40,513 bases of DNA from Prochlorococcus sp. AG-347-O22 (GTDB taxonomy: Bacteria > Cyanobacteriota > Cyanobacteriia > PCC-6307 > Cyanobiaceae). A program made the translations under genes and the position numbers. Of this stretch, positions 18,564-34,854 are shown in pieces (position 1 is the stretch's first letter; every line of letters begins with the position of its first letter). The notes under the pieces are model-generated. The model did no database searches. It had not been told where the DNA came from and worked only from the letters and a program-made list of their open reading frames with translations. The DNA lies in NCBI GenBank assembly GCA_003278845.1, contig QCCX01000009.1, positions 1 to 40,513 on the forward strand, in the 5' to 3' direction.

Positions 18564-18568
18564 TAATT

Positions 18569-18776: not shown

Positions 18777-18850
18777 CGGGGCGTGGCGCAGCTTGGTAGC
18801 GCGGGTGCTTTGGGAGCACTAGGTCGCAGGTTCGAATCCTGTCGCCCCGA
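18777..18850 (+). tRNA. tRNA-Pro (anticodon TGG), intact copy and integration target
   Basis: Acceptor CGGGGCG/CGCCCCG pairs over 7 bp, the anticodon stem GGTGC/GCACT encloses TTTGGGA (anticodon TGG at 18811-18813), T arm CGCAGGTTCGAATCCTGTCG, discriminator A, followed by an encoded CCA (18851-18853). It is the only complete copy in the window; the ten partial copies around it are insertion scars. Its 5' flank differs from that of the displaced 5' halves, so the present promoter probably came with the element. Confidence 0.97.
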
Positions 18851-18873
18851 CCATTTAAAAACCAAGTCATACT

Positions 18874-18898
18874 AGCGAGTCTCCCAACTCGCTTTTTT
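18874..18898 (+). terminator. Terminator of tRNA-Pro
   Basis: AGCGAGT (18874-18880), loop CTCCCA, ACTCGCT (18887-18893) and T-run. Most 3' tRNA fragments further right carry a version of this hairpin with changed stem bases on both sides but the same TCCCA loop. Confidence 0.9.
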
Positions 18899-18925
18899 AT
18901 TTCTCAGAAGTCTCAATAATTTAAA

Positions 18926-18984
18926 TAGCGATTAAATAGCGATTATTTGTATAGCCTCGTATAACTTTGTCCAGTTAATCGCTA
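18926..18984 (+). repeat. Unit 1 left end: TAGCGATT pair
   Basis: TAGCGATT at 18926 and 18937 (11-bp period; the full 11-mer AAATAGCGATT is repeated). An inverted copy AATCGCTA lies at 18977. Between them is TTTGTATAGCCTCGTATAAC, related to sequence after the pairs of other units. The matching pair is at 23031/23042. Confidence 0.75.
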
Positions 18985-19134
18985 ACCATCACTAGGTTCA
19001 TTAAACCTCTAAATAAATAAAATAATCAATAAAGTTCCAATACTGAAAATTAAACTCCAACCCTGAGAATTAATTTTCAATTTAAAAATTATTTATATGT
19101 AATGAGTAAAAAACCTAAATAGGTTAAAAACCAT

Positions 19135-19458
19135 TTATTCACAAGACCTTTTACTTGATGATGACTGAATTAAATTACCCATCCAATTTTTAATATCTGA
19201 TAATACTTCCAAATCTAATTTGTAGTAAACCCATCTACCTTCTTGTCTATCAGAGATAAGACCTGAATCCTTAAGGATTTTTATATGATAGGAAATTTTA
19301 GATTGAGATAATCCAGTTACTTTAACTATGTCGCAAACACATATCTCTCCACCCATCATTAATTCAAGAATATTTATTCTAATCGGATCTGAGAGGGACT
19401 CCATTATCCCAATAAATTGATCACTATCAATCTTTTTAAGTTGTTCTAACAAAATCAA
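19135..19458 (-). CDS. arsR: ArsR-family repressor
   Basis: 107 aa, winged helix typical of SmtB/ArsR: LSDPIRINILELMMGGEICV then CDIVKVTGLSQSKISYHIKI and the wing DRQEGRWVYYKL. The ELMMGGEICVCD stretch carries the Cys-Val-Cys metal-binding motif of arsenite-sensing ArsR (ELCVCD). It is divergent from gap-arsJ and the ATCAA-N6-TTGAT boxes in the gap promoter are its likely sites. A C-terminal Cys (SKRSCE) may be a third ligand. Confidence 0.92.
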   Translation of the reverse strand: MILLEQLKKIDSDQFIGIMESLSDPIRINILELMMGGEICVCDIVKVTGLSQSKISYHIKILKDSGLISDRQEGRWVYYKLDLEVLSDIKNWMGNLIQSSSSKRSCE

Positions 19459-19504
19459 AAGATCATTAACTTTTTAAATACTAACCTAAAAAATTTAATT
19501 ACAC

Positions 19505-19542
19505 ATATCAAGAATTATTGATATATCAATTATTTTTGATAT
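19505..19542. promoter_or_regulatory. Two ArsR operators upstream of gap
   Basis: ATATCAA-N6-TTGATAT occurs at 19505-19524 and again at 19523-19542, sharing two bases. ATCAA-N6-TTGAT is the form expected for cyanobacterial ArsR. They lie between arsR and gap and can control both. Confidence 0.8.
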
Positions 19543-19568
19543 ATATTATATTAGGTTTTGATATTTCT

Positions 19569-20597
19569 ATGAAAATTGGAATTAACGGATTTGGAAGAAT
19601 TGGTAGGTTAGTTTTAAGAATTTTATGGGAAAGAAAAGATATTGAAATAACTCATATAAATGAAATTAATGGGGATTCTTTAACTGCATCTCATTTACTA
19701 GAGTTTGATTCTGTTCATGGTAAATGGAATAAAAAAATAGCTTCGAATGACAACGAAATAATAATTGAAGATAAAAAAATTTCCTTTACATCAATAAAGA
19801 ACTATCTTGATGTTCCATGGAATAAATCTTCGGTTGATCTTGTTTTGGAATGTACAGGTAAAAACAAAGCTCCTAAAGAATTAAATCCATACTTTGATTC
19901 TCTTGGAATAAAAAAAGTAATAGTTGCTTGTCCTGTGAAAGGAATTGTGGGAGGGGAACAAGCACTTAATATTGTTTATGGAATTAATCAAGCCCTTTAT
20001 AAACCTGAAAAACATAAATTAATTACAGCAGCATCCTGTACTACAAATTGCTTGGCTCCCATCGTAAAAGTTGTTAATGAAAATTTCTCAATTAAACATG
20101 GGGTTATAACAACTATTCATGACGTTACAAATACACAATCTCCAGTAGATTTTTACAAAAGTGACTTAAGAAGAGCAAGAGGATGCATGCAAAGCTTAAT
20201 ACCTACTACAACTGGATCAGCTAATGCGATTGCTGAAATTTTCCCTGAATTAGAAGGAAAACTAAATGGTCATGCAGTAAGGGTTCCACTTCTAAACGCC
20301 TCATTAACCGATATAGTTTTTGAATTAAATAAGGAAGTAACTGAAGAGCAAGTAAATAATGAATTTAAAAAAGCATCTGAAACATACTTAAAAGGTATTC
20401 TTGGATACGAGGAGAGACCCTTAGTATCCGCTGATTACTTAAATGACTGTAGAAGTTCAATAATTGATGGACTTTCAACGATGGTTGTAAATTCTAATTT
20501 ATTAAAGATTTATGCCTGGTATGACAATGAATGGGGTTATAGTTGCAGGCTTGCAGATCTTACTTCTTATGTAATTGAGAAAGAAAATAAATTTTAG
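19569..20597 (+). CDS. gap: Glyceraldehyde-3-phosphate dehydrogenase of the arsenate-detoxification type
   Basis: 342 aa from ATG 19569 ([20 protein letters not shown], Rossmann fold). The catalytic Cys is in [11 protein letters not shown], and [15 protein letters not shown] is the usual C-terminal signature. The longer frame from 19518 only covers the operator region. Next to arsJ and under ArsR boxes, it probably uses arsenate in place of phosphate to make 1-arseno-3-phosphoglycerate, which ArsJ exports. A glycolytic role under phosphate stress is the alternative. Confidence 0.92.
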
Positions 20598-20602
20598 TTT
20601 TT

Positions 20603-21859
20603 ATGAAGTTATCTAGCCTTCAACAATATAGTGTCGTTACCGCAAACTATTGGGCATTTACTCTTACTGACGGTGCATTGAGAATACTAGTTGTTGGTCA
20701 TTTTCATGAACTTGGTTATTCAACTCTGCAAATTGCTTTACTTTTTCTTTTCTATGAATTTTTTGGAATAATTACAAATCTTTTTGGAGGATGGATAGGG
20801 GCAAGATATGGGTTGAGACTTACTTTATGGATAGGAACAATTCTGCAAATTCTTGCTCTTTTCATGCTGATTCCAGTCAAAGAGAATTGGTCAATAATCT
20901 TTAGCGTCTCATACGTTATGTTAGCCCAAGCACTTAGTGGGGTAGCAAAAGATTTAAATAAAATGAGTGCAAAAAGTGCCGTTAAATCAATAGTTCCAGA
21001 TTCAGAAGAGAATAATCAAAATAGTCAAAAACAATTATTTAAGTGGGTTTCAATTTTAACAGGATCTAAAAATGCACTTAAGGGTGTTGGTTTCTTCCTA
21101 GGGGGTCTCTTATACAAGCTATTGGGCTTTAATAATGCAGTTGGAATAATGGGTTTAGGTCTATGCTTCGCATTCTTTTTAACTTTATGTCTTCCTAAAG
21201 ATTCAGGGAAAATGAAAAGAAAGCCAATTTTTAAAGACCTTTATTCAAAGTCTAAAGGTATTAATATTCTTTCAAGTGCAAGGTTTTTCTTATTTGGTGC
21301 AAGAGATGTCTGGTTTGTAGTAGCTCTTCCAGTATTTTTAGACATTTCTTTTGGATGGGATTATTTAGAAATAGGACTGTTCTTGGGTGGATGGATAATA
21401 ATCTATGGTTTCTTTCAAGTATTAGCTCCATTACTTAGAAAAGTATGGGGGAAAAATAATAGCCCAACAAAAACTACCGTTCAATTTTGGGGACTTATCT
21501 TGACGGTTATTCCTTTATTTATTGCAGGAGCATTAAACGGTGATAAATCATTAGGTCCTGTAATTGTTATTGGATTAATAATATTCGGCTTTATTTTTGC
21601 AATGAATTCATCTACTCATTCCTACTTGATTTTGGCTTATTCAGATAATGAGAAAGTAAGTTTAAATGTTGGTTATTACTATATGGCTAATGCAGCGGGA
21701 AGATTATTTGGAACCCTACTATCGGGCTTATTATTTATGCTCGGTAAAAATGCCACTATTGGTATGCAGTATTGTTTATATACTTCATCTATTTTGATTT
21801 TTATTGCTTGGCTTACTAGTTCTAAATTACCTTCCTATTCTTCCAACAGCTTCAATTGA
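20603..21859 (+). CDS. arsJ: ArsJ-type major facilitator exporter of 1-arseno-3-phosphoglycerate
   Basis: 418 aa with about 11-12 hydrophobic helices. The N-terminus NYWAFTLTDGALRILVVGHF and GVAKDLNKMSAKSAVK are typical ArsJ signatures. It follows gap by 5 nt; together they form the known gap-arsJ arsenate efflux pathway in the inner membrane. Its 3' end overlaps the pstS-like gene tail-to-tail by 33 nt, so the stop regions of both genes constrain each other. Confidence 0.92.
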   Translation: MKLSSLQQYSVVTANYWAFTLTDGALRILVVGHFHELGYSTLQIALLFLFYEFFGIITNLFGGWIGARYGLRLTLWIGTILQILALFMLIPVKENWSIIFSVSYVMLAQALSGVAKDLNKMSAKSAVKSIVPDSEENNQNSQKQLFKWVSILTGSKNALKGVGFFLGGLLYKLLGFNNAVGIMGLGLCFAFFLTLCLPKDSGKMKRKPIFKDLYSKSKGINILSSARFFLFGARDVWFVVALPVFLDISFGWDYLEIGLFLGGWIIIYGFFQVLAPLLRKVWGKNNSPTKTTVQFWGLILTVIPLFIAGALNGDKSLGPVIVIGLIIFGFIFAMNSSTHSYLILAYSDNEKVSLNVGYYYMANAAGRLFGTLLSGLLFMLGKNATIGMQYCLYTSSILIFIAWLTSSKLPSYSSNSFN

Positions 21860-22798
21860 TTTTTTTAAAATTTCACCTTTCAAGGGAACGAAACCCAAGG
21901 CAGGAGCTTTATCTTGGTATTCATCGCTGAGCAATTTATAGAATGTATCTTGAATTGCCTTAGTATTCCTTCCATTACCTGTTTCATAAGCAAGTATCCA
22001 AGTCAAAGTTGCTATTGGATAAGCTCCTTTAGCAGTAGGATTTGGATTTTTACCAGCCAAGTTCTTATCAAGAGTTATTCCATTTAAAGCTATCGCGCCT
22101 GATTCAGTATTAGGGGTAACGAATTCACCAGATAGGTTTTGAAGTGCAGCAGCCTTAACATTACCTTTAATGTATGACTGGTTTACATAACCGATTGCGC
22201 CAGGAGTGTTTTGAATAACACCTGCAACACCAGAATTGCCTTTTGCTCCAACTCCCGAAGGCCATTTAACAGATTTACCAGTACCTAGATTCCAGGTTTT
22301 AGAGAAAGCCTCCATAGAATTTGTAAAAGCTTTAGTCGTGCCTGAGCCATCAGAACGATGGGCCCAAGTTAATTTACCTGACTTACATCCTAATTCCTTC
22401 CAATTTTTAATCATTCCCATTGCTACTTGAACAGCTTGTTCTTGTGTTAGTTTCAAGTCGCAATCGTAGTTATATCCAAACGCAATTGTTCCACCTACCA
22501 TCGGTATTTGCACAAGTCCTCTAGTAACTTTTTTTATATCAGAATCTTTCATTGGATCGTCAGAGGCTCCAAAATTAACAGTTTCATCTATGAAAGCTTT
22601 TCTTCCAGATCCAGAACCTACTGCTTGATAATTAACTCTAGGGCCTCCAGATTTAGCTAAGTCAAAAAACCACCTAGTATAAATCTTCGAAGGAAATGAT
22701 GCACCAGCACCACTCAATCTTTTTGAAGCCATCGCAGATGGAGAAAGTATCAATGAAATTGCAGAAGATAAAATGAGAGTTTTTTTGAAAATACTCAT
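21827..22798 (-). CDS. pstS: Phosphate-binding periplasmic protein PstS (SphX-like)
   Basis: 323 aa with a signal peptide (MSIFKKTLILSSAISLILSP then SAMA). The mature protein starts KRLSGAGASFPSKIYTRWF and has GSGSGRKAFI and RSDGSGTTKAF, phosphate-contacting loops of the PstS family. It delivers phosphate to the Pst ABC transporter, encoded elsewhere. Two ATCAA-N6-TTGAT boxes 70-110 nt upstream tie it to the ArsR regulon, which is unusual for a Pho gene and suggests a binding protein chosen for phosphate over arsenate. Confidence 0.92.
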   Translation of the reverse strand: MSIFKKTLILSSAISLILSPSAMASKRLSGAGASFPSKIYTRWFFDLAKSGGPRVNYQAVGSGSGRKAFIDETVNFGASDDPMKDSDIKKVTRGLVQIPMVGGTIAFGYNYDCDLKLTQEQAVQVAMGMIKNWKELGCKSGKLTWAHRSDGSGTTKAFTNSMEAFSKTWNLGTGKSVKWPSGVGAKGNSGVAGVIQNTPGAIGYVNQSYIKGNVKAAALQNLSGEFVTPNTESGAIALNGITLDKNLAGKNPNPTAKGAYPIATLTWILAYETGNGRNTKAIQDTFYKLLSDEYQDKAPALGFVPLKGEILKKSIEAVGRIGR

Positions 22799-22869
22799 TA
22801 GCCACTTAGATTGAAGACAATTTATTTATAGCATCAAACAAAAAGCGAAATACAAAGATTAAGAAATGC

Positions 22870-22904
22870 ATCAAAATATTTTGATATAATCAATAATTAT
22901 TGAT
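22870..22904. promoter_or_regulatory. Two ArsR-type operators upstream of pstS
   Basis: Perfect palindromes ATCAAAATATTTTGAT (22870-22885) and ATCAATAATTATTGAT (22889-22904), both ATCAA-N6-TTGAT like those at gap. Spacing is 19 bp, about two helical turns. Confidence 0.75.
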
Positions 22905-22952
22905 ATATACGACCTGTTCGCTCTTTTTAAAAGCTTATTACTTTCATAAAAA

Positions 22953-22990
22953 AGAGGGTTTTATCCCTCTATGTTGGATCGACTGTCAAT
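22953..22990 (-). terminator. Minus-strand hairpin plus TTGACAGTCGATC motif
   Basis: AGAGGG (22953-22958) pairs with CCCTCT (22965-22970), with TTTTTT on the minus strand; next to it GGATCGACTGTCAAT (22977-22990). It has the same layout as motifs at 30021, 33206 and 36201. No minus-strand gene lies directly upstream now, so it is likely a leftover. Confidence 0.65.
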
Positions 22991-23013
22991 CAATGATATT
23001 TTACAGCTCCTAA

Positions 23014-23049
23014 AGCACTAGGTCTTTGTTTAGCGATTATTTAGCGATT
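23014..23049 (+). repeat. Unit 1 right end: tRNA scrap plus TAGCGATT pair
   Basis: AGCACTAGGTC (23014-23024), identical to tRNA-Pro positions after the anticodon, then TAGCGATT at 23031 and 23042 (11-bp period). Same heptamer pair as at 18926/18937, in the same orientation, so unit 1 has matching ends around the arsenate cassette. Confidence 0.75.
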
Positions 23050-23175
23050 AATTGTATATCTAAGGATAATTTTGTATAACTTTGGCCTATTTTTAAGACT
23101 CGTAATTTTGTAGATATAGCAACTAACAAGCTATAGCCTGACTTGTTTATTTAACCCACTGTCTCAAATTGGAGG

Positions 23176-23225
23176 GCGGGTGCTTTGGGAGCACTAGGTC
23201 GCAGGTTCGAATCCTGTCGCCCCGA
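23176..23225 (+). repeat. tRNA-Pro 3'-half fragment 1
   Basis: GCGGGTGCTTTGGGAG onward to CGCCCCGA is identical to the 3' part of the intact tRNA (46 of 46 nt from GTGC). CCA is not encoded. A GCTATAGC motif lies 46 nt before it (23130). Confidence 0.95.
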
Positions 23226-23244
23226 CTCTAATAATCCAAGTCAT

Positions 23245-23271
23245 AGACAGGTTTCCCAGCCTGTCTTTTTT
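23245..23271 (+). terminator. tRNA-derived terminator after fragment 1
   Basis: AGACAGG/CCTGTCT around a TTTCCCAG loop with T-run. The stem differs from the intact tRNA's terminator on both strands while the loop is kept. Confidence 0.85.
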
Positions 23272-23283
23272 ATTGGTTGAGAT

Positions 23284-23318
23284 ATGACATATTTGTATTT
23301 ATGTCATATTTATGTCAT
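23284..23318 (+). repeat. Unit 2 left end: ATGTCAT pair
   Basis: ATGACAT (inverted) at 23284, ATGTCAT at 23301 and 23312 (11-bp period). The order inverted-direct-direct is the same as in the recombinase promoter cluster (18569, 18589, 18600). Confidence 0.75.
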
Positions 23319-23415
23319 ATGACTAAATATTGAAAATTCAATTTTTCAATTTATTGTTCATAAGTGAAATCTTGTGATTTTAAATGTACTATTTGGAATA
23401 ATTCAAATTTCTTGA

Positions 23416-23955
23416 ATGGATAAAGCTACAAAGTGGTTAATAAGAGGAGCAGCATCTGCAGTGATTCTTTTAGCAATAGGAACTCCAACTTATTTAATAA
23501 TTTCAAAAAACATAAATGAGGTTAATACCCAAAAAAGGGAAAAGAATGAAAAATTAACTTCATTAAAGAATGTGATGAAACAGGTGGCTTCAAGGCTCGA
23601 GAATGGAGTGTCTTTACAATCATCAACAGATGCGTTTAGACCTCTTGTAGATAAGTTAGCTGTTGTAAGAGAATTTTATCCAGAAGATCCAGCGGTAATC
23701 TCAGCCACAAAATCAGAATCTCTTTTCAATATTCTTCAAACATATTGGTATAACACAATTTATTACGATGGAATAGCATTGGGACTAAATCCAGAGATAT
23801 CAAAATTTAATAGAATAGCAGGTAAAACAGTTGCCACCCCCCTTCAAGAGAAAAGATTCTTTGGAGTTACAAGTGTTGATAAAGTTGAATCTAAAGTACA
23901 AAGAGCTGTGATGTATAACTATATAATTCGACTGCTTAAGGAAGGATCAATTTAA
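23416..23955 (+). CDS. Membrane-anchored hypothetical protein, 179 aa
   Basis: One N-terminal transmembrane helix (ASAVILLAIGTPTYLIISKN) followed by a charged, mostly helical domain with LVDKLAVVREFYPEDPAVIS and FNRIAGKTVATPLQEKRFFG. Not recognised. It is the only gene of unit 2 and is framed on both sides by the ATGTCAT pairs, so it is the whole cargo of a ~0.9-kb unit. Confidence 0.7.
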   Translation: MDKATKWLIRGAASAVILLAIGTPTYLIISKNINEVNTQKREKNEKLTSLKNVMKQVASRLENGVSLQSSTDAFRPLVDKLAVVREFYPEDPAVISATKSESLFNILQTYWYNTIYYDGIALGLNPEISKFNRIAGKTVATPLQEKRFFGVTSVDKVESKVQRAVMYNYIIRLLKEGSI

Positions 23956-23965
23956 TAAAAGATTT

Positions 23966-23983
23966 ATGTCATATTTATGTCAT
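23966..23983 (+). repeat. Unit 2 right end: ATGTCAT pair
   Basis: ATGTCAT at 23966 and 23977, 11-bp period, starting 11 nt after the stop of the 179-aa gene. Same orientation as the left pair. Confidence 0.75.
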
Positions 23984-24009
23984 ATAAGTCTTTATTTATC
24001 AGGGCAAAT

Positions 24010-24027
24010 CACGCAATTTTACGCAAA
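24010..24027 (+). repeat. ACGCAA pair next to fragment 2
   Basis: ACGCAA at 24011 and 24021 (period 10) closely resembles the recombinase-promoter sites at 18589-18606 (GTACGCAATTTGTACGCAAA). The homologous position in unit 6 (31190-31220) is altered. Confidence 0.55.
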
Positions 24028-24073
24028 AAATCAGTTATAGCTTGAAAACGTAGTGCTCATCTAGGGGTGTCCA

Positions 24074-24119
24074 GTGCTTTGGGAGCACTAGGTCGCAGGT
24101 TCGAATCCTGTCGCCCCGA
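24074..24119 (+). repeat. tRNA-Pro 3'-half fragment 2
   Basis: 46 nt, no mismatch to the intact tRNA. GTTATAGC lies 40 nt upstream. No tRNA-type terminator hairpin follows this copy; the GGGCGATC pair begins 31 nt later. Confidence 0.95.
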
Positions 24120-24149
24120 TTGACTTCTCAAGATTCTCAATTATCCTTT

Positions 24150-24208
24150 GGGCGATCTCTGGGCGATCATTTGCTATACCTTGCATAGCTTTGCATACTG
24201 CATCGCCC
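24150..24208 (+). repeat. Unit 3 left end: GGGCGATC pair
   Basis: GGGCGATC at 24150 and 24161 (period 11), inverted ATCGCCC at 24202, 41 nt after the second copy, as in unit 1 (40 nt). Between them CTATACCTTGCATAGCTTTG. Matching pair at 27194/27205. Confidence 0.8.
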
Positions 24209-24327
24209 GCTAAAACAACTAAATAAGCAATATTAAACAGACCATTGCTCCAATACTAAAAATTAAGATCTACCCTTGCGAGTTAATAGTCTTTCAAAAT
24301 AATCATTTTTTCATTTTAAATAGGTTT

Positions 24328-24660
24328 TTATTTATTAAATTTAAAACCCGAACCACAAGAACTTTTTGTCGCGCCTTTTGGAGTACTAATCAAGAATCCT
24401 CCTCCGGATAAATCCTGATAATGATCAAGTGATAGTTCATCTAGTAAACTTTTTTGAGATTCTGGAGCGTAGACAGTTAAGCCATCAGTTCTTGCAATCG
24501 GAATTCCTGATTTTTCCCAGATATTAACTCTCAGAAACATCCATCCATCATCAAGAATATCAGGTTGCAAATATAGGAATATTTCTCCAGGTGTACCACG
24601 ATAAATTGATTGCCTGAGCAATTCATTTGAAGCAGCCTTGGTAATAGTTAAAGAACTCAA
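24328..24660 (-). CDS. HesB/IscA-like protein, 110 aa
   Basis: Resembles A-type iron-sulfur carriers: SLTITKAASNELLRQSI start and a GGGFLISTPKGATKSSCGSG end in place of the usual NPNA...CGCG tail. Only one Cys is present (in SSCGSGF) and the internal Cys of IscA is absent, so canonical cluster binding by three Cys is unlikely; it may act in a dimer or have another role. It is divergent from the CobW-like operon. Confidence 0.7.
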   Translation of the reverse strand: MSSLTITKAASNELLRQSIYRGTPGEIFLYLQPDILDDGWMFLRVNIWEKSGIPIARTDGLTVYAPESQKSLLDELSLDHYQDLSGGGFLISTPKGATKSSCGSGFKFNK

Positions 24661-24800
24661 TTTTCAAATACACTTAGTACATAGATTAATTATTTTTTAA
24701 TTCAATAACAAGCATTCCATAATGTTCTCACTTTATTAGCTGCGTAATTTCTCTGAATTTTTTATTTCCTCTCATAAGAAATATCTAAAAACAAAAACAA

Positions 24801-24822
24801 AAATGATTATCATTTTCATTTT
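24801..24822. promoter_or_regulatory. Fur/Zur-like box
   Basis: AAATGATTATCATTTTCATT, a run of NATWAT-type hexamers as in Fur-family operators, lies 32 nt before the CobW-like start. Fur and Zur sites are too alike to separate by eye. It may also serve the divergent HesB/IscA-like gene. Confidence 0.6.
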
Positions 24823-24853
24823 GGTGTAAATTTTATACATCAGGTAGTTTTTT

Positions 24854-25636: not shown

Positions 25637-25642
25637 TTAAAA

Positions 25643-27177: not shown

Positions 27178-27178
27178 A

Positions 27179-27212
27179 CACTAGGTCGCAAGCGGGCGAT
27201 CCTCGGGCGATC
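27179..27212 (+). repeat. Unit 3 right end: tRNA scrap plus GGGCGATC pair
   Basis: CACTAGGTCGCA (27179-27190) equals tRNA-Pro sequence, then GGGCGATC at 27194 and 27205. It matches the left pair at 24150/24161 in sequence, period and orientation. Confidence 0.8.
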
Positions 27213-27463: not shown

Positions 27464-27482
27464 TGAGCGAGCTTTGAGCGAG
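27464..27482 (+). repeat. Unit 4 left end: TGAGCGAG pair
   Basis: TGAGCGAG at 27464 and 27475 (period 11), followed by ATTTGCAATACCTTGCATAA, akin to unit 3. A single TGAGCGAG at 28424 marks the right end. Confidence 0.7.
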
Positions 27483-28423: not shown

Positions 28424-28431
28424 TGAGCGAG
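28424..28431 (+). repeat. Unit 4 right end: single TGAGCGAG
   Basis: One copy of the unit 4 octamer, followed by ATTGTGCTTATTTATGCACC, which resembles the sequence after the left pair. The first copy of the pair seems lost. Confidence 0.55.
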
Positions 28432-28607: not shown

Positions 28608-28638
28608 CTGGCTTTTCAGCGATTACCTAATTTGACTT

Positions 28639-28656
28639 AGGGAAAAATTAGGGAAA
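28639..28656 (+). repeat. Unit 5 left end: AGGGAAA pair
   Basis: AGGGAAA at 28639 and 28650 (period 11). Matching pair at 29434/29445. Confidence 0.75.
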
Positions 28657-28796
28657 ATGACCTCCTTTTTAGGGGGTTTTCTTATGGTTTTTCCTTATAC
28701 TTTATAGAATTTTATTAAATTTTTTAGGATATAAGCCTACCTTATATAAATAGATAGAGTTGGTTGCTATCCTCATTGGGTGAGAGTTATTAAGTA

Positions 28797-28919: not shown

Positions 28920-29053
28920 CAAGAAACCCTTCCAGAAATTCCAACTACTGAAAGGGTTATTAAATCGACACTCAACTATATAGGATCAATTTATGTCTTG
29001 CAGCAAATGTAGATTTTGCTGACGAGGTTTGGTCTCAATTAATTTATAGCAAT
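28918..29053 (-). terminator. Conserved 3' UTR/terminator element (copy 1)
   Basis: About 130 nt shared with 33276-33410. Read on the minus strand, downstream of the 29059-29274 gene, it contains TTGAGTGTCGATTTAATA and a hairpin of AACCCTTT with GGAAGGGTT ending in TTCTT. Stem bases differ from copy 2 while pairing is kept, so it acts as RNA. Confidence 0.6.
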
Positions 29054-29058
29054 AATTT

Positions 29059-29274
29059 TTAAACTCCCGCTATTTTTTGTTCCGCTAGACGTTTTTTTAG
29101 AATTGAATAATTTTGTGAAGCCCATTTTCGAGAAATATCTAATTCAGCATCTAAAAACTTTTGAAGCGATTTGATTATTTTAAATACTTCTAAGAAGCCT
29201 AGATAAATTATTACCAGCATCTTAGTTATGTTTACTGCAACACCCACTAACTTTTCAATTCTTTGATCTTGCAT
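29059..29274 (-). CDS. Small membrane-associated hypothetical protein, 71 aa
   Basis: One hydrophobic helix (VAVNITKMLVIIYLGFLEVF) followed by an amphipathic, basic C-terminus (ISRKWASQNYSILKKRLAEQ). Not recognised. It lies in unit 5 and ends at a conserved 3' UTR element. Confidence 0.6.
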   Translation of the reverse strand: MQDQRIEKLVGVAVNITKMLVIIYLGFLEVFKIIKSLQKFLDAELDISRKWASQNYSILKKRLAEQKIAGV

Positions 29275-29416
29275 TTGAACTTATTGAAGCTTACTAAAAT
29301 TATCAGTTCTAAGAAATTATGCAAATGTTTTTCAAATTAAAAATAACTTTTAAAAATGCTGGTTTTCTTCCTAGCTAAGACCCCCATCATATAGACAAAC
29401 TTTTAAAACCTTATGT

Positions 29417-29451
29417 AGCACTAGTTCAACTTTAGGGAAAATTTAGGGAAA
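29417..29451 (+). repeat. Unit 5 right end: tRNA scrap plus AGGGAAA pair
   Basis: AGCACTAG (29417-29424) then AGGGAAA at 29434 and 29445 (period 11). Same heptamer as the unit's left end. GCTATAGC follows at 29513. Confidence 0.75.
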
Positions 29452-29552
29452 AACCAATTAAGTATTAGAAAGTTTTATAAGTTTTTAGAAGAAAAAAGGG
29501 CTTATAACTGAAGCTATAGCTTCAAATCGTAGATATAGGGGCTTCTTAACTA

Positions 29553-29598
29553 GTGATTTGGGAGCACTAGGTCGCAGGTTCGAATCCTTTCGCCCCGA
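29553..29598 (+). repeat. tRNA-Pro 3'-half fragment 5
   Basis: Two mismatches in 46 nt (GTGATTT, CCTTTCG). A terminator AGAGAGT/ACTCTCT with TTCCCAG loop follows (29620-29647). Confidence 0.93.
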
Positions 29599-29671
29599 AT
29601 TTAAAAACCAAATTATAATAGAGAGTTTCCCAGACTCTCTTTTTTATTGTTTGCAATCTCAAATGAGAAAA

Positions 29672-29690
29672 GGGATCTCTAGGGGGATCT
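29672..29690 (+). repeat. Unit 6 left end: GGGATCT pair
   Basis: GGGATCT at 29672 and 29684 (period 12). I find no matching pair before fragment 6; the right end of this unit seems replaced. Confidence 0.55.
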
Positions 29691-29756
29691 AAATTGTTTA
29701 AACTTTCTCAAAAGGTGCTTAATTTGAAGCAGTGGTGACACTAATAAGTGTTTCAT

Positions 29757-30020
29757 TTACTCAACAAGTTCAAGATTATAAACAGTATCTACACAGTTGT
29801 TATCAATATCCCATTGTTTTAATTCTGGTTGTTCAAGCATTGCACCAAACTTTTCTAAATCAGAACAATTCATAAGAATCATTGCTTTATGTTCATTTAC
29901 TTTTACAATCTCCAACTCAGAACAAAAAACATATCCTTGTTCTTTATCAACTTTTTTTACCATCATTTCAAATTCAGAAAAAGGACAACCAAAGGTCGAA
30001 ACAACTAAAGTGTTAGGCAT
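29757..30020 (-). CDS. Hypothetical protein, 87 aa
   Basis: A mixed alpha/beta-looking small protein: MPNTLVVSTFGCPFSEFEMM, then VFCSELEIVKVNEHKAMILM and a terminal VDTVYNLELVE. Three Cys and no membrane segment; it has the ferredoxin-like size of DUF3303/DUF3764-type island proteins nearby but I do not match it. Its ATG follows directly after the T-run of a terminator-like hairpin at 30021-30043, an odd 5' end. A MKHLL mini-frame begins at its stop. Confidence 0.65.
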   Translation of the reverse strand: MPNTLVVSTFGCPFSEFEMMVKKVDKEQGYVFCSELEIVKVNEHKAMILMNCSDLEKFGAMLEQPELKQWDIDNNCVDTVYNLELVE

Positions 30021-30064
30021 AAAAAAAGGCGTGAATTTGCCTTATTTTAGATCGACTGTCAATC
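30021..30064 (-). terminator. TTGACAGTCGATC motif plus hairpin before the 87-aa gene
   Basis: Minus strand: GATTGACAGTCGATCTAAAA, then stem AAGGC/GCCTT (30039-30043 with 30026-30030) and seven Ts ending at the ATG. It looks like a terminator of an upstream transcript, or an attenuator controlling the gene. Confidence 0.6.
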
Positions 30065-30190
30065 TTAGTTAATATGGCGGTGCGAGTAGTAAGAGTTTCA
30101 TACTCTTCTATTTTTTAAATTTAAAAATAAGTTTGTGTAATTCGCAATAACTAATAACAGCAAAAGAAAAGTATTAATGGACATTAAATA

Positions 30191-30231
30191 AAAAGGGGTT
30201 TAATTCCCTCTAATATAGATAGGCTTTCAAT
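30191..30231 (-). terminator. TTGAAAG motif plus hairpin after the DUF3764-like gene
   Basis: Minus strand TTGAAAGCCTATCTATATTA then GAGGGAATTAAACCCC and TTTTT. It follows a 13-codon mini-frame (30227-30268, MKLLLFASLIVSN) whose stop is part of the motif. Confidence 0.6.
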
Positions 30232-30271
30232 TACTTACTATTAGCGAGGCAAATAGTAAAAGTTTCATTAA

Positions 30272-30577
30272 TTAATCACAACAATCGCCCTTTGTTAATG
30301 AAGCAGTCCAAGAGGATTCCTCCATTGTTGATAAGTCAACTCTATGAGTTGCCATCCAGTCACCATTTGCTTCCACAAACTTTTGAACATTACCTTCTGG
30401 AGCTTGATGAATAACAATTATTCTTTGAGGATCTTCCTTGCTTACTCCTCTGAAAAGTGGCTTAATATCAAATTCTGAATGCCTTTTATCTGCTTCTGTA
30501 CTATCAAATATTGCAGCCCATTCATCGAAAGTGCTTTCAATTTTAAAAGTAAACACTGAAGTAACTGAACAAGACAT
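30272..30577 (-). CDS. DUF3764-like protein, 101 aa
   Basis: VFTFKIESTFDEWAAIFDST then EADKRHSEFDIKPLFRGVSK and RIIVIHQAPEGNVQKFVEAN is the pattern of a small Prochlorococcus family I know as DUF3764, probably a dimeric ferredoxin-like fold. Function unknown. The C-terminus carries Cys-Cys (KGDCCD). A hairpin with AAGGAG (30581-30600) sits at its 5' end and may include the ribosome binding site. Confidence 0.65.
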   Translation of the reverse strand: MSCSVTSVFTFKIESTFDEWAAIFDSTEADKRHSEFDIKPLFRGVSKEDPQRIIVIHQAPEGNVQKFVEANGDWMATHRVDLSTMEESSWTASLTKGDCCD

Positions 30578-30580
30578 AAT

Positions 30581-30615
30581 AAAAAGGAACTAATTACTCC
30601 TTATTTTAGATCTAA
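30581..30615 (-). promoter_or_regulatory. Hairpin with embedded ribosome binding site
   Basis: Minus strand TTAGATCTAAAATAAGGAGT then AATTAGTTCCTTTTTATT before the ATG. AAGGA pairs with TTCCTT, so the likely ribosome binding site AAGGAG is in the stem. Confidence 0.45.
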
Positions 30616-30704
30616 TTTTTTAAAAAGCTTTGTTGTTAGTTGGCAAAAAGTAGCATTATTCTTTTTTTAAGCTGGTAAAGAGGTTAATTTCCTTTAATTT
30701 TTAT

Positions 30705-30818
30705 ATGGAATTTTTAAATAATCTTTGGAATAATCAACTAAATGTAATTATTGGTGTAGGGATAGCTACAGCAGTATTGTTGGGGATTTATATATTTTTG
30801 TTAGATATAATTAAGTAA
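30705..30818 (+). CDS. Small single-pass membrane protein, 37 aa
   Basis: MEFLNNLWNNQLNVIIGVGI then ATAVLLGIYIFLLDIIK. One C-terminal hydrophobic helix. Its stop overlaps the ATG region of the next gene (2-nt gap), so they form an operon. Similar in outline to 28797-28919. Function unknown. Confidence 0.55.
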   Translation: MEFLNNLWNNQLNVIIGVGIATAVLLGIYIFLLDIIK

Positions 30819-30819
30819 A

Positions 30820-31137
30820 ATGTTGCGACTGCTTCCTTTACCGATTTTTATTTGCATTTATTTATTCTCTTGGTGGAGATGTAAAAAAAATATTATCGCC
30901 AGTGATAAGCAACTAAAACCTTGCATTGATTGGGCATATGTAAAAAATTTACCGCTTCCAAAAAAACCATCTTTTGTCGAGTTTTATGTTGTTTATGTTT
31001 CTTCTTTTTTTAAATTCCCCTTTGGGATAATTATTCAACAACTACCTTTCGCAAAGAAAGTAAGATACTACGAAAGAGAAATGAAATTAATATTTGATAA
31101 ATGGAATTTAGAAAAAATAAAAAAAATAACTAACTAA
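30820..31137 (+). CDS. Hypothetical protein, 105 aa
   Basis: An N-terminal hydrophobic segment (LPLPIFICIYLFSWW) followed by a basic body with KPCIDWAYVKNLPLPKKPSF and an aromatic membrane-near stretch VEFYVVYVSSFFKFPFGIII. Probably membrane-associated. Not recognised. Second gene of a two-gene set in unit 6. Confidence 0.6.
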   Translation: MLRLLPLPIFICIYLFSWWRCKKNIIASDKQLKPCIDWAYVKNLPLPKKPSFVEFYVVYVSSFFKFPFGIIIQQLPFAKKVRYYEREMKLIFDKWNLEKIKKITN

Positions 31138-31264
31138 ATTATTATTTAATCGCCATTGTCCAATGCGGACAAATATTGCTTTGTTTGACAAGACAAATCA
31201 CACAGAACACAGCAAGAAATCAGCTATAGCTTAAAATCTAGTGCTGTACTAGCTCTGTGCGGTT

Positions 31265-31306
31265 TTTTGGGAGCACTAGGTGTAGGTTCGAATCCTGTCG
31301 CCCCGA
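31265..31306 (+). repeat. tRNA-Pro 3'-half fragment 6
   Basis: The match starts near TTTTGGGAGCACTAGG and has a deletion plus substitution in the variable region (GGTGTAGG for GGTCGCAGG) and two changes in the anticodon arm. GCTATAGC lies 42 nt upstream (31223). Confidence 0.9.
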
Positions 31307-31359
31307 TTAAGTTATAGCAGTAAGTCTCAGCTAATAATAATTTTTCCCTCTAAAATACC

Positions 31360-31377
31360 TTCCCTCAAAATTCCCTC
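31360..31377 (+). repeat. Unit 7 left end: TTCCCTC pair
   Basis: TTCCCTC at 31360 and 31371 (period 11), with a third copy at 31344. No matching right pair is visible before fragment 7. Confidence 0.55.
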
Positions 31378-31433
31378 AAATAGTTTTTTATTAGACTTAT
31401 TTTAATAATTTAATTTAAAATATTTTTTAAATT

Positions 31434-32045
31434 TTAGTATTCTTCATAGCTAAACTTTTGCCCTCCTATGCTTGCTTCATACATAAGGCCTCCTTTTGAA
31501 TATGTAAGAACTGCAACTCCATCACTGTAATCGGCAGATGCATTAGCTCCCTCTGAAATTAATGCTGCACTAGCTGATGCCCCAAATTCAAAATTACCTT
31601 CAGTAAATCTCTCAAGGGATTTCTTATCTTTGAAAAAGATAATTTGGCTAAATGCTTGTCCACCTAATTGAAAGCCGATTGATACTTGAGTTAACGTTGT
31701 TTTTCCAATAACATTCCCTTTTTCAAATACCTCACCACTACCTCTAGCACCTCCAATTCCAATTCCTCCTTTTCCTACATTTGGGAAAACCGCGTAACCT
31801 CTAGCTTTTTTAAAGTAGGGTTTCAAAGAGGATATGTTTTTAAACTTTTTTAATGCCTTTATTGTCTTATCACTAGCTTTTTTATCTTTAATATTTTTAT
31901 CTGATAATGGTTTCCAACCAGAAATTAATAATTCATCTGAAATTTTATTTAATTGAGATTCATTAAAAGCAGATGATTGAACTGAAGTTAAATATTGTGG
32001 AAAAATTAATAGTGCAACCAAAAAAACCTTTCTAGTCATTTTCAA
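31434..32045 (-). CDS. SYLF/Ysc84-type lipid-binding protein with signal peptide
   Basis: 203 aa. Signal peptide MTRKVFLVALLIFPQYLTS, then the SYLF core: ARGYAVFPNVGKGGIGIGGA, RGSGEVFEKGNVIGKTTLTQ, VSIGFQLGGQAFSQIIFFKD and AVLTYSKGGLMYEASIGGQK. SYLF domains bind phosphoinositides or other lipids in eukaryotes; bacterial secreted versions are of unknown role, probably at the outer membrane or envelope. Sole gene of unit 7. Confidence 0.85.
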   Translation of the reverse strand: MKMTRKVFLVALLIFPQYLTSVQSSAFNESQLNKISDELLISGWKPLSDKNIKDKKASDKTIKALKKFKNISSLKPYFKKARGYAVFPNVGKGGIGIGGARGSGEVFEKGNVIGKTTLTQVSIGFQLGGQAFSQIIFFKDKKSLERFTEGNFEFGASASAALISEGANASADYSDGVAVLTYSKGGLMYEASIGGQKFSYEEY

Positions 32046-32106
32046 ATTGATAATTACTTGTTAGATAAGAAATAATATACCCTAATCAAGAAATTTTACA
32101 TTTCAT

Positions 32107-32152
32107 GGTGCTTTGGGAGTACTAGGTCGGAGGTTCGAATCCTATCGCCCCA
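32107..32152 (+). repeat. tRNA-Pro 3'-half fragment 7
   Basis: Recognisable over 46 nt with about four changes (GTACTAGG, GTCGGAGG, CCTATCG, CGCCCCA). Followed by a worn terminator hairpin (GAGTT...AACTC, T-run). The most decayed long fragment and the farthest from the intact tRNA. Confidence 0.9.
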
Positions 32153-32459
32153 CTCTTAAAAACCAAGTCATACCTAGGAGTTATCTAAACTCTCTTTTTT
32201 TTGTTTATGTCTCAAATTGAAAAAGGGGCACCCTAGGGAGCACTTGTTTCAAGTACTTTGATCTAAAGTGTGCCTATTATTTTTATTTAATTAATTAATT
32301 TCTTTTATTAAAAACAGGTTCTTTCCGGCTAAGTGTGCGTAGGTAATTTCGAGCCCTAAAAATCCACTAGTCAGAGGGAACTATATATGGACACAAACTT
32401 ACACTTAATGAGAAGTAATATAACCTCTCAAAGGGAAAGCAGGAGTAGTAAGCGTTTCA
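32153..32459. other. 307-nt gene-free stretch at the start of unit 8
   Basis: Holds the fragment 7 terminator, the GCAC pair, and at 32385-32420 a segment resembling 15948-15980 of the satellite element (ATATGGACACAAACTTACAC). It ends with a 10-codon mini-frame MKRLLLLLSL on the minus strand (32428-32460) that overlaps the next gene's stop. Confidence 0.5.
32225..32243 (+). repeat. Unit 8 left end: GCAC pair
   Basis: GGGGCAC at 32225 and GGGAGCAC at 32236; GCAC repeats with period 12. The right pair at 34834-34854 has the same core and the same period 12. Confidence 0.55.
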
Positions 32460-32741
32460 TTAACAATATAGAGCTACTGTTTGATCTAAATCTGCACAAG
32501 GTTCAATAGTAAATTCCAATAATTCTCTCCAAGGACTCCACTGTTTCCAAATAGTTTCTAAAGAATCAGCATCTACAACTGAGTAACCATTGCCATGTTG
32601 AGGTAAGAAAATCCAAGATTTAACGTCATAACCCTCTGGTCTATTTTGTGGCCCTCCTTTGTCGTACCATTCCTTTAGCATTTTTGCTCCCTTGTCTTGA
32701 GCATTTGCATCAGTAAATTTATAAGAAATTAGAAACAACAT
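32460..32741 (-). CDS. DUF3303-like small protein, 93 aa
   Basis: LFLISYKFTDANAQDKGAKM then a central RPEGYDVKSWIFLPQHGNGY and LEFTIEPCADLDQTVALY; this fits the short ferredoxin-like family DUF3303, frequent in marine picocyanobacteria. Function unknown. Its TAA overlaps an ATG that opens MKRLLLLLSL. Confidence 0.6.
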   Translation of the reverse strand: MLFLISYKFTDANAQDKGAKMLKEWYDKGGPQNRPEGYDVKSWIFLPQHGNGYSVVDADSLETIWKQWSPWRELLEFTIEPCADLDQTVALYC

Positions 32742-32809
32742 AAATTAAAAGCTAATTGCAATCTATCTTAAAGTGTTTTTATTTAAAAGACGTCTAAGTA
32801 GTAAGTGTT

Positions 32810-33205
32810 TCAATTTTTATTGTTAACTAATCCATAAATACATAAAAGAGGATTCACTATTAAAACAATCCAAAAAGGAGGAGGAGGTCCTCCATCAACA
32901 ATTATCCCAGCGTTAAAAGTATTGAATAGAGCTACTGCTAAAAAACAAAACATCAAAGCTAATTCACCTGATAAAACTTTTCTCAAAGAGGCTTTATCTT
33001 TTATAGAACTACAAATAAACAATAAACAACCAATTCCAAAATTACTAGCTGCTACAACATTTGCAGTACCTCTAACAAGAAGCAATGTTTCACTTGAGGC
33101 ATCGCCTGCAATAGTTTCCACTGAAAAGATAAGTAGGGAAATAATTAACGCTCCCAACAGGATATGCAGCGCTCCAGTAGTTTTTAAAATATTTTTTAAC
33201 TTCAT
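32810..33205 (-). CDS. Four-helix membrane protein, 131 aa
   Basis: Four hydrophobic segments: LKTTGALHILLGALIISLLI, residues 44-66, 78-98, and FWIVLIVNPLLCIYGLV. A GGPPPPF loop precedes the last helix. It resembles DUF4345-like small membrane proteins but I am not sure. A TTGACAGTCGAT motif (33206-33249) precedes the ATG. Confidence 0.65.
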   Translation of the reverse strand: MKLKNILKTTGALHILLGALIISLLIFSVETIAGDASSETLLLVRGTANVVAASNFGIGCLLFICSSIKDKASLRKVLSGELALMFCFLAVALFNTFNAGIIVDGGPPPPFWIVLIVNPLLCIYGLVNNKN

Positions 33206-33249
33206 AAAAAAGGAGTTTGTTGCTATTTATTTTATATCGACTGTCAATC
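33206..33249 (-). promoter_or_regulatory. TTGACAGTCGAT motif before the four-helix gene
   Basis: Minus strand GATTGACAGTCGATATAAAA, then AACTCCTTTTTT up to the ATG. The T-run is kept but the hairpin is weak here, unlike 30021 and 36201. Confidence 0.5.
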
Positions 33250-33275
33250 GTTAATAAGCATAGGCCGACAATAAA

Positions 33276-33410
33276 AACAAGAAACCCCTCCAGAAATTCC
33301 AACTACCAGAGAGGTTATTAAATTGACCCGTACTATATAAAGTCAATCTATGTCTTGGAGTAAACGAAGAGTGTACTCATAGAGGTTTGGCCTCATTTAA
33401 TTTATAGCAA
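33276..33410 (-). terminator. Conserved 3' UTR/terminator element (copy 2)
   Basis: Homologue of 28918-29053, lying downstream of the 33433-33618 gene. Minus strand stem AACCTCTC/GAGGGGTT. It includes a 17-codon frame MRPNLYEYTLRLLQDID (33343-33396) only partly preserved in copy 1. Confidence 0.6.
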
Positions 33411-33432
33411 AAATAATATCAAATAAACTTAT

Positions 33433-33618
33433 TTAAACTTCCCAATCTATGTCATAATCGTCCTCAATGTCTTTTTCATAAACCCTCGCAAGTTCTCTAA
33501 GTAAAGTTTTTACTTCCATATCTGTAGCACCAGATTCGTCTTGGTACTTTGTGCAAATTGCCTTAAGTTCTTCATAAGCTTGCTCAAGCAATATTGTTTT
33601 TTGTTCTGAATTAGCCAT
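33433..33618 (-). CDS. Acidic hypothetical protein, 61 aa
   Basis: MANSEQKTILLEQAYEELKA, then two more helices and an acidic end KDIEDDYDIDWEV. The last residues DIDWEV match the peptide next to the recombinase (17107-17223). Starts directly after the stop of the gene upstream (TAAATG), so the two are coupled. Unknown function. Confidence 0.65.
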   Translation of the reverse strand: MANSEQKTILLEQAYEELKAICTKYQDESGATDMEVKTLLRELARVYEKDIEDDYDIDWEV

Positions 33619-33768
33619 TTAGTTTTTATTCACTACTTCTCCTCCATATTCTCTTGCTATTACATCTAAACATCTAAGAATATCTTTGTTTTTCAATAGA
33701 TCTGTTTGCTCTAAATAATTAAGAAGAGTTCTTATTTGTTCAATAGTATTTTCTTCTAATTCCTTCAT
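33619..33768 (-). CDS. Small helical protein, 49 aa
   Basis: MKELEENTIEQIRTLLNYLE then QTDLLKNKDILRCLDVIARE. All-helical, no membrane segment. Forms a two-gene unit with the acidic 61-aa gene (TAA-ATG overlap). Together they might be a small regulatory or toxin-antitoxin-like pair, but nothing in the sequence proves it. Confidence 0.55.
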   Translation of the reverse strand: MKELEENTIEQIRTLLNYLEQTDLLKNKDILRCLDVIAREYGGEVVNKN

Positions 33769-33821
33769 TTATTTTCCACAGTGGTTAATTATTATAATAA
33801 TATTGAATCTATTAGTATGTT

Positions 33822-34781
33822 TTGACTAAAGATAAAAAATTACTGAGTTCTTTTCAATTAATTACGAGATACTGCAAAATAGAGGCTCCTTATTGGAGGT
33901 ATTTTTTAGAGCATTATAAAAGTTTAGGAATATCTCTTTTTCATATATGTGTGCAAACAGAAGATGATTTGGATGATTTTAATAATCAGTTTAAAGGTTT
34001 GTGCACTAACCACATAATTCATAAACTTAATTCTAATCTAACTCCAGATGTGGCTATGAAAAATTTTAATTTTAAACTAATAAATCCTGATTTGAAATAT
34101 ACGATATTTCTAGATTCAGATGAATTTTTTAATTTCACAGGTAATATCAATGATTTAAATGAGTGTATTGATGAATTTACGCAAATAAGAATTCCATGGG
34201 TGATGAATATTTTGGAAAATATTTATGATGATAAATGTCAAGGATATTACGGACATACAGGAAAGCCAATAAGCCTAACAAGCCAAATTACATCTTTACA
34301 TGGTGATCATGCATTTAAATTAAGAGGTTTCAGAAAAAAGGTAGAACACTTTATTGGGAAAAGAAGCGAACATAGAATACCTTTACTAATCAATGCAATA
34401 TTAATTCATTACTGGTCAAGGGGTATTAAGGATGTAATTCTGAGAACAATTTTTAGTAGATTCAAAAGTTTCAAACAATCTGATCAGTCGCAATTTTTCG
34501 AAATAATAAAGTCTGGATCTCTACCTAATAGATTAAAAATGATGGCTTTTCTGAGTATTCAGAAAAACTATCTTTTTTTTGAAAGTAAATTTATCAGTAA
34601 TTATTATGATGCTGAAATAGAAAATTCATTACTAAGATCTTTTGGAATTTCAGAAATTTTGGTAGATGATATTCAAGAAAATTACTTTAATTACAAAGAA
34701 CAATTGATTAAAAATAATATTTTTCCAAGATATCCATCAATATCTATACCTACAATGCAAAAAATAAAGAAATTCATTTAA
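33822..34781 (+). CDS. Putative glycosyltransferase (GT92/GT2-like), 319 aa
   Basis: FQLITRYCKIEAPYWRYFLE HYKSLGIS-type start (written here with a break) fits glycosyltransferases that act as stem-less GT2/GT92 relatives: a nucleotide-sugar fold ending in YTIFLDSDEFF, whose DSD is the metal-binding DxD. Later HAFKLRGFRKKVEHF and LIHYWSRGIKDVILRT fit acceptor-side helices. The start is TTG 33822 or a later codon. Would modify cell-surface glycans, a common island cargo. It is the last gene of unit 8. Confidence 0.7.
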   Translation: MTKDKKLLSSFQLITRYCKIEAPYWRYFLEHYKSLGISLFHICVQTEDDLDDFNNQFKGLCTNHIIHKLNSNLTPDVAMKNFNFKLINPDLKYTIFLDSDEFFNFTGNINDLNECIDEFTQIRIPWVMNILENIYDDKCQGYYGHTGKPISLTSQITSLHGDHAFKLRGFRKKVEHFIGKRSEHRIPLLINAILIHYWSRGIKDVILRTIFSRFKSFKQSDQSQFFEIIKSGSLPNRLKMMAFLSIQKNYLFFESKFISNYYDAEIENSLLRSFGISEILVDDIQENYFNYKEQLIKNNIFPRYPSISIPTMQKIKKFI

Positions 34782-34818
34782 ATCAAATTTAAGAATTATT
34801 CTATCTCCCTGTCATGTG

Positions 34819-34854
34819 GCACTAGGTCGCAAAGGGGCGCACAAAAGGAGGCAC
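34819..34854 (+). repeat. Unit 8 right end: tRNA scrap plus GCAC pair
   Basis: GCACTAGGTCGCA (34819-34831) equals tRNA-Pro sequence; then GGGGCGCAC (34834) and GGAGGCAC (34847), GCAC period 12. The last trace of tRNA-Pro in the window, taken as the right border of the island. Confidence 0.65.

Follow-up and report, generated by a model that had tools for sequence, protein, structure and literature searches.

The integrase of bacteriophage lambda binds arm sites with a small N-terminal domain and the core with its catalytic domain, and the arms lie on both sides of the core (PMC4880445; each paper is cited in this text for a part of its content). In the stretch of DNA analysed here, the 40,513-nucleotide contig QCCX01000009.1 of Prochlorococcus sp. 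AG-347-O22 (the window, at its full length), cargo units without an integrase are stacked behind a tRNA-Pro gene, and each opens with a short word repeated at a period of 11 or 12 bases. We propose that these paired words are probably the arm-type sites of lambda-like (two-handed) tyrosine integrases, serving as private addresses among elements that share one tRNA-Pro core. The two-handed plan would be the same as in lambda, whereas here one core is common to serial elements and the arm words differ. The converse arrangement, the same arms with different cores, is that of lambda and HK022.

Hackl and others reportedly described the tycheposons of Prochlorococcus in 2023. Tycheposons are tRNA-anchored, have a tyrosine recombinase and carry cargo with nutrient genes (PMC10872708). 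The window comes from the same genus and holds the same kind of island, and tRNA insertion with tRNA fragments at the boundaries is found here as well. Private arm words and their link to an integrase N-terminal domain were not found in the literature searched, the main tycheposon paper lying outside that search. In tandem accretion, integrative and conjugative elements and integrative and mobilizable elements are stacked at one attachment gene, and the integrase-less members, the cis-mobilizable elements (CIMEs), keep attL and attR; in the cited part of the source, CIMEs are described as decayed and moved in cis with a neighbour, with no address code (PMC5704250). In Dehalococcoides, numerous ssrA islands stand in tandem with repeats of a single RNA gene as their boundaries, and several lack an integrase, but they use a serine recombinase, and the cited part describes no arm pairs (PMC3146451). 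In the KplE1 prophage, the promoter of the integrase gene intS overlaps attL and its arm sites, and the arms here are likewise located either at the integrase start or slightly upstream of it; KplE1 differs as a single prophage, for which the cited part describes no array and no word diversity (PMC2951348). Compared with an integron cassette array, which relies on folded attC sites and IntI, the recombinase here appears to be of the arm-binding kind and the boundaries are tRNA halves. The lambda-type integrases, the tRNA islands and the elements that lost their integrase are known parts; an address layer that is exchanged jointly with the N-terminal domain was not found in the literature searched.

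A unit was defined as the stretch between consecutive tRNA-Pro 3' halves, and a pair as two copies of a 7-mer with period 11 or 12. On the right side of the intact tRNA-Pro(TGG) are seven 3' halves, at 23181, 24075, 27345, 28563, 29554, 31265 and 32111, and core matching showed that they begin at the anticodon-arm core TGCTTTGGGAGCAC or a variant of it. Allowing up to 2 mismatches, 228 of the 266 genus genomes contain the 3' half pattern. All seven window units open with a pair (Table 1), while 1000 composition-matched shuffles gave a mean of 0.26 and a maximum of 2; the same pair stands at both ends in four of the seven, and in none of the 1000 shuffles. The paired words in the window are confirmed. 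A preliminary description, made from the letters of the window alone, had listed the pairs of units 1 to 5, including a single closing copy of TGAGCGAG, and the word GTACGCA at both ends of the recombinase-bearing element, and all of these are present. It had overlooked unit 6 (29588-31265, GGGATCT) and unit 7 (31296-32111, TTCCCTCAAA), and its GCAC unit has repeats at both ends that form only a degenerate pair. Its statement that every unit closes with its own opening word describes four of the seven units; the other three are without a matched closing pair, units 6 and 7 having no closing pair. The constant geometry that it claimed did not hold up, because most units have period 11, one class has period 12, and the distances fall into discrete classes.

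For the relatives, loci around arrays and integrases (cited by L numbers) were selected among the matches listed, and the counts are not population frequencies. A first set of 74 loci gave 176 units, of which 161 were kept after removing duplicates and short flanks. Among these, 118 open with a pair, 104 close with a pair and 75 have the same word at both ends (periods 11/12). Permuting the closing ends gave a mean of 3.83 matches and a maximum of 12 (2000 permutations), and periods 8, 9, 10, 13, 14, 15, 16 and 17 each gave 0 matched units of 161. A larger set, consisting of the window and its relatives, went from 249 units to 221 on removal of duplicates and to 169 clusters when units sharing more than 15% of their 14-mers were merged. 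In this set an opening pair is present in 122 clusters and a closing pair in 112; 90 have both, and 75 have one word at both ends, with a mean of 3.50 and a maximum of 11 for permuted ends (2000 permutations).

In the 75 matched clusters, the opening pairs have period 11 and distances of about 29, 51 or 73 bases, and the closing pairs stand about 115, 127 or 155 bases (period 11) or about 152 bases (period 12) ahead of the core; the window-type integrases have their pair at 223 bases from the core. The distance and period combinations were named classes A to F. By reading, the word of each class consists of a more constant and a more variable half: xxGCGAxx in class A, xxxxxCAAAT in class B, GGxxxxCTAG (period 12) in class C, and an ending in GGAAAA or CGAA in class D. 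The opening arms of one word can be shifted by about 22 or 44 bases between units (TGAGCGAG at 28 and 72-74, GGTAGCTAG at 51 and 73), which would preserve helical phase. In the window, the longer opening version includes a hairpin that has a run of T and may be the tRNA terminator.

Removal of duplicates and of frames of 380-400 amino acids without an adjoining tRNA reduced the integrase hits from 218 to 117. The tRNA-Pro core adjoins 93 of the 117 frames, and 67 of the 93 have a 7-mer pair of period 11/12 in the closing region, either at the integrase start or between integrase and core. PF00589 was a poor probe for these integrases, since 39 of the 71 matches listed in 40 genomes were frames of 389-398 amino acids, which we take to be Xer recombinases. 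After near-identical sequences were removed, 82 of the 93 integrases were placed on a tree built by a quick search without the N-terminal domain. On its 65 labelled rows the geometry classes change 7 times (least possible 5), compared with a mean of 30.6 for shuffled labels and none of 200 shuffles as low; L223 has a very long branch, and the program warned of long branches meeting. As far as these sequences go, pair distance and period are shown to follow the integrase clade. Nine of the 16 listed integrase-bearing units have period 11/12 pairs at both ends, 7 of them with the same word; counted by clusters, the same word is at both ends in 6 of 7.

The letters of the words were compared with the integrases in classes B and F, where 36 of 37 integrases with aligned words were kept (one with a truncated N-terminal domain was dropped) and GCCAACAAAT words were anchored by CAA. 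Word distance correlated with N-terminal-domain distance at 0.558 and with catalytic-domain distance at 0.287; the partial rho was 0.500 for the N-terminal domain (0 of 2000 permutations as high) and -0.017 for the catalytic domain (1137 of 2000). Restricting the comparison to class B (n=31) gave partial values of 0.384 (0/2000) and 0.074 (309), and restricting it to integrases whose catalytic domains differ by more than 25% (n=22) gave 0.428 (0) and 0.025 (783). In a positional control, the six letters of copy 1 gave 0.50 and those of copy 2 gave 0.46 with the N-terminal domain, the constant letters 0.00 (copy 1) and 0.42 (copy 2), and five blocks on the integrase side 0.02 to 0.09 (values reached in 17 to 135 of 500 permutations). 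On the core side, six blocks gave -0.12 to 0.18 with the N-terminal domain and 0.30 to 0.46 with the catalytic domain. Because the integrase-side flanks barely covary, linkage is not the explanation of the relation between word and N-terminal domain. The positional values indicate that the word letters in classes B and F follow the N-terminal domain and not the catalytic domain, and that toward the core the DNA goes chiefly with the catalytic part. Column mutual information (z above 4) showed only a weak excess for the N-terminal domain (16 of 258 pairs, compared with 28 of 714 and 32 of 828) because relatedness confounds it, and the partial correlations and the positional control were relied on instead.

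Natural swaps were also found. The integrases of L075 and L237 are 97% identical outside the N-terminal domain and 33% inside it, and their words are TTCCGTCAAA and TGCGGACAAA; L086, L114 and L224 are 95-96% identical outside and 64-77% in the hairpin, and their words differ. L114 and L219 have an identical hairpin (22/22) and the same word, with only 46% identity in the rest. Examples of this kind are seen in class C too. In the window integrase, R299, K321, R409, H432 and Y441 are invariant across 50 aligned integrase sequences; we take them to be the catalytic set of tyrosine recombinases. Its structure model matches Tn1549 Int (Foldseek E 1.4e-5) and lambda Int, and no Pfam family matched the protein at 0.001. 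Arm-binding N-terminal domains are described in part of PMC8138268 as one helix plus three strands, and the N-terminus of the model agrees with that plan (helix 26-38, strands 43-48, 51-58 and 61-66). It is predicted that this domain binds the words and that the catalytic domain binds the common core, so that strand exchange would be assembled only between cores flanked by matching words. One unit of a stack could then be excised without its neighbours.

No integrase lies in the window units to the right of tRNA-Pro, and the element at 10213-18776 has its own tyrosine recombinase. Because the word of this integrase, TGTACGCA, differs from the adjoining cargo words, on this reading it would not move the neighbouring cargo. 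Among the 169 clusters, 156 are without an integrase frame, and 69 of the 156 have the same word at both ends; judged by sequence, these units retain putative attL and attR, as CIMEs do. In 52 of the 69 the paired 7-mer is shared with an integrase at another locus, some of these matches resting partly on the constant half of the word, while reversed words matched in 6 of 69 and reverse complements in none. The 17 misses, among them all four window units with one word at both ends, were AGCGATT (4), ATGTCAT (5), GGCGATC (2), TAGGGAA (2) and four others. In other genomes, three words of the window do stand beside integrases, TGAGCGAG in L220, GGGGGATCT in L218 and TTCCCTCAAAT in L096, and all three come from units without a full closing pair; the integrase-bearing unit of L220 is 8.4 kb long with TGAGCGAG at both ends. 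The preliminary description had read the pairs as arm sites of tyrosine recombinases with diverged specificities and had expected the word to go with the recombinase across genomes. Shuffles and end permutation put the matched pairs far above chance in the window and the relatives, and the reading is supported by geometry that follows clade on the 82-integrase tree and by letters that, in classes B and F, track the N-terminal domain specifically. As for its idea that each cargo keeps the address of the enzyme that can move it, possibly in trans, these three words have a candidate integrase elsewhere, and four others have no exact partner, as given below.

One word occurs with many cargo clusters. 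At class B opening ends, the identity between cargo clusters drops to about 0.3 within 20 bases inside the word, and in class A only after about 50-100 bases. Window unit 3 recurs, 98.6-99.5% identical, in L003, L076, L079 and L085 with different neighbours, and in L003 and L076 the match runs from the core to the next 3' half. At 95% identity, the phosphate cargo of unit 1 is found again in L217 (7182-11146), where its opening pair is GGGCGATC and not TAGCGATT and the closing end is off the contig; it appears likely that this cargo was re-addressed.

In 61 of 169 clusters, a second core-like tract (GCACTAGGTC, at most 2 mismatches) precedes the core by 100-300 bases, in most cases standing 10-30 bases ahead of the closing arms; this loose count has no shuffle control. 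Exact 9-mers gave a second core in 44 of 169 clusters, compared with 0.8 in shuffles and 0.78 of 162 in cargo interiors. By eye, it stands directly by the integrase start codon in 7 of 8 integrase-bearing cases; where the integrase is absent, it stands at the cargo junction. An outer half CTAGTGC at 7-base spacing was found in 19 of 53 integrase-less cases and in 0 of 8 with an integrase, chance being 1% (34/3340). The TGAGCGAG units diverge from the integrase-bearing one at the second core tract (by eye), and their averaged identity falls less sharply outward (0.92, 0.63, 0.60, 0.36). Cargo may have replaced the integrase gene at the second core. The tract is seen before the closing arms in units of classes A, C and D, for example in L220, L219, L243, L244, L245 and L250.

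We tentatively propose a population-wide addressing of cargo, in which integrases sharing one tRNA core swap the arm-binding domain together with the word, integrase-less cassettes of the same word are delivered by any arriving integrase of that address, and re-addressing takes place at the second core beside the left arm, cargo having replaced the integrase gene. Integrase-less units would be moved in trans by any integrase whose N-terminal domain reads their word, and addresses would change through joint exchange of N-terminal domain and arm blocks. A possible, if rather doubtful, alternative is that the words are true arm sites but fossils: the integrase-less units would have decayed, their words would record the inserter, and shuffling among genomes would go through homologous recombination. 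In its favour, no cognate integrase was seen in the window assembly, the closing pair is missing in three of the seven window units, and tandem islands are known to pass through a stage in which decayed elements still have attL and attR (in the cited part of PMC5704250). On the other hand, fossils do not readily account for ends that still match in the 69 integrase-less clusters, for the reuse of one word with many different cargo clusters, or for the unit 3 copies beside different neighbours, bounded in L003 and L076 by the core and the next 3' half. It is highly improbable that arm and N-terminal domain were co-inherited without recognition because the left arm adjoins the 5' end of the integrase. 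The left arm is indeed at or beside the integrase start and the integrase-side blocks are faintly related, but both word copies covary far more strongly, the relation of word to N-terminal domain given flank distance is 0.558 against 0.184 for flank given word, and the same word stands kilobases away at the other end in 7 of 9 integrase-bearing units paired at both ends. We give very little credence to the pairs being sites of another protein (an excisionase or a nucleoid protein) or low-complexity repeats; extra period-10 repeats, TTGCATA and ACTTTGC, just inside some arms may be such sites, but the letters of the pairs follow the integrase N-terminal domain, and composition-matched shuffles and other periods give nothing.

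Several results weigh against reading the paired words as arm-type addresses. By the test used, 26 of the 93 core-adjacent integrases have no period 11/12 pair, 15 of the 90 clusters paired at both ends have different words at the two ends, and the integrase-bearing units L005 and L229 have mismatched words. Class E integrases (12 rows) have pairs at period 10, and their word is absent at the other end in both units seen whole, L110 and L252; the true class E arm may be TCCGTGGA. Only classes B and F entered the covariation test. Among the five integrase-side blocks, three weakly exceed permutation (17, 24 and 30 of 500), as do two core-side blocks with the N-terminal domain (0.18, 0/500; 0.10, 13/500). 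Modelled alone, the N-terminal domain shows the same elements with low confidence (mean predicted local distance difference test score, pLDDT, 62.5) and has no fold match at E 0.001. TAGCGATT, ATGTCAT, GGGCGATC and AGGGAAA have no exact partner among the 67 integrases with a readable pair. Because the window assembly (1.41 Mb, 42 contigs, 89% complete) shows only its own integrase and one 389-amino-acid PF00589 frame, presumably a Xer recombinase, the window cargo is without a known resident mover.

Private arm addresses would help to explain how, in an abundant marine phototroph, cargo islands lacking an integrase could move and yet stay distinct on one core: the address would sit in the arms, not in the core. 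The 36 integrases with aligned words are a natural series of protein and DNA variants for the recognition code of arm domains, and such a code would permit prediction, from sequence, of which integrase could move which cargo. If true, integrase specificity in tandem islands evolves through exchange of a small domain, with the catalytic part and the target fixed.

Table 1. Positions of tRNA parts, integrase, paired words and core-like tracts in the window
Feature	Position	Strand	Remark
tRNA-Pro 5' half, left end of recombinase element	10213..10252	+	ends at core; core matching
Left arm pair GTACGCA (10314/10324)	10314..10330	+	spacing 10
Tyrosine integrase, 462 amino acids, predicted N-terminal arm-binding domain	17226..18614	-	W43-R58, beta hairpin of model
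Right arm pair GTACGCA (18589/18600)	18589..18606	+	spacing 11; about 223 bp ahead of core
Intact tRNA-Pro(TGG)	18777..18853	+	ARAGORN; shared core TGCTTTGGGAGCAC within anticodon arm
Unit 1 opening arm pair TAGCGATT (18926/18937)	18921..18945	+	period 11
Second core-like tract	23015-23024
Unit 1 closing arm pair TAGCGATT (23031/23042)	23029..23050	+
tRNA-Pro 3' half separating units 1 and 2	23182..23225	+
Unit 2 opening arm pair ATGTCAT (23301/23312)	23296..23320	+
Unit 2 closing arm pair ATGTCAT (23966/23977)	23962..23985	+
Unit 3 opening arm pair GGGCGATC (24150/24161)	24149..24168	+
Second core-like tract CACTAGGTCGCA	27179..27190	+	immediately before unit 3 closing arms
Unit 3 closing arm pair GGGCGATC (27194/27205)	27193..27212	+
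Unit 4 opening arm pair TGAGCGAG (27464/27475)	27464..27482	+	word also beside integrase L220, another genome
Unit 4 closing word TGAGCGAG	28424..28431	+	one copy
Unit 5 opening arm pair AGGGAAA (28639/28650)	28637..28657	+
Second core-like tract	29418-29424
Unit 5 closing arm pair AGGGAAA (29434/29445)	29431..29452	+
Unit 6 opening pair GGGATCT (29672/29684)	29672..29690	+	period 12; word also beside integrase L218
Unit 7 opening pair TTCCCTCAAA (31360/31371)	31360..31380	+	word also beside integrase L096
Unit 8 opening degenerate pair GCAC (32228/32240)	32225..32243	+	period 12
Second core-like tract GGCACTAGGTCGCA	34818..34831	+	ahead of the closing repeats of unit 8
Unit 8 closing degenerate pair GCAC (34839/34851)	34818..34854	+	range includes the preceding core-like tract GGCACTAGGTCGCA

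The integrase-bearing element to the left of tRNA-Pro is 8.5 kb long, with the tRNA 5' half as its distal end, and it seems to supply its own 5' half and promoter to the tRNA at 18777. An inverted copy of GTACGCA lies at 18569. Between 10322 and 17110 the element encodes a protease-capsid protein, a VapE-like protein and a ligase-like adenylation domain, and no clear phage family was found in the other scanned frames of this region; the element resembles a satellite that has a capsid gene of its own. A near-identical integrase was found at 13 loci, 12 in Prochlorococcus and 1 in Synechococcaceae. In viral contigs no relative of the window integrase was found, the TAGCGATT pattern occurred in 0 contigs, and the TGAGCGAG pattern in 2. 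Two tRNA-Pro 5' halves lie on the left of the window, at 9575-9615 and 10213-10252, and elements may be stacking on the 5' side as well, each bringing a new 5' half and promoter.

Integrases related to those at tRNA-Pro, located at tRNA-Gly and tRNA-Thr (L171, L172, L253 and L255), have paired words of period 10 or 12 near the tRNA, and L169 at tRNA-Ala has a 6-mer pair only, both observations being without a shuffle control. The TTGCATA and ACTTTGC repeats occur just inside the arms of class A units, for example at 24181 and 27222 in the window, and are perhaps excisionase sites. The small RNA Yfr13 is present in two copies on the minus strand, at 28939-29036 and 33297-33394, in two different cargo units.

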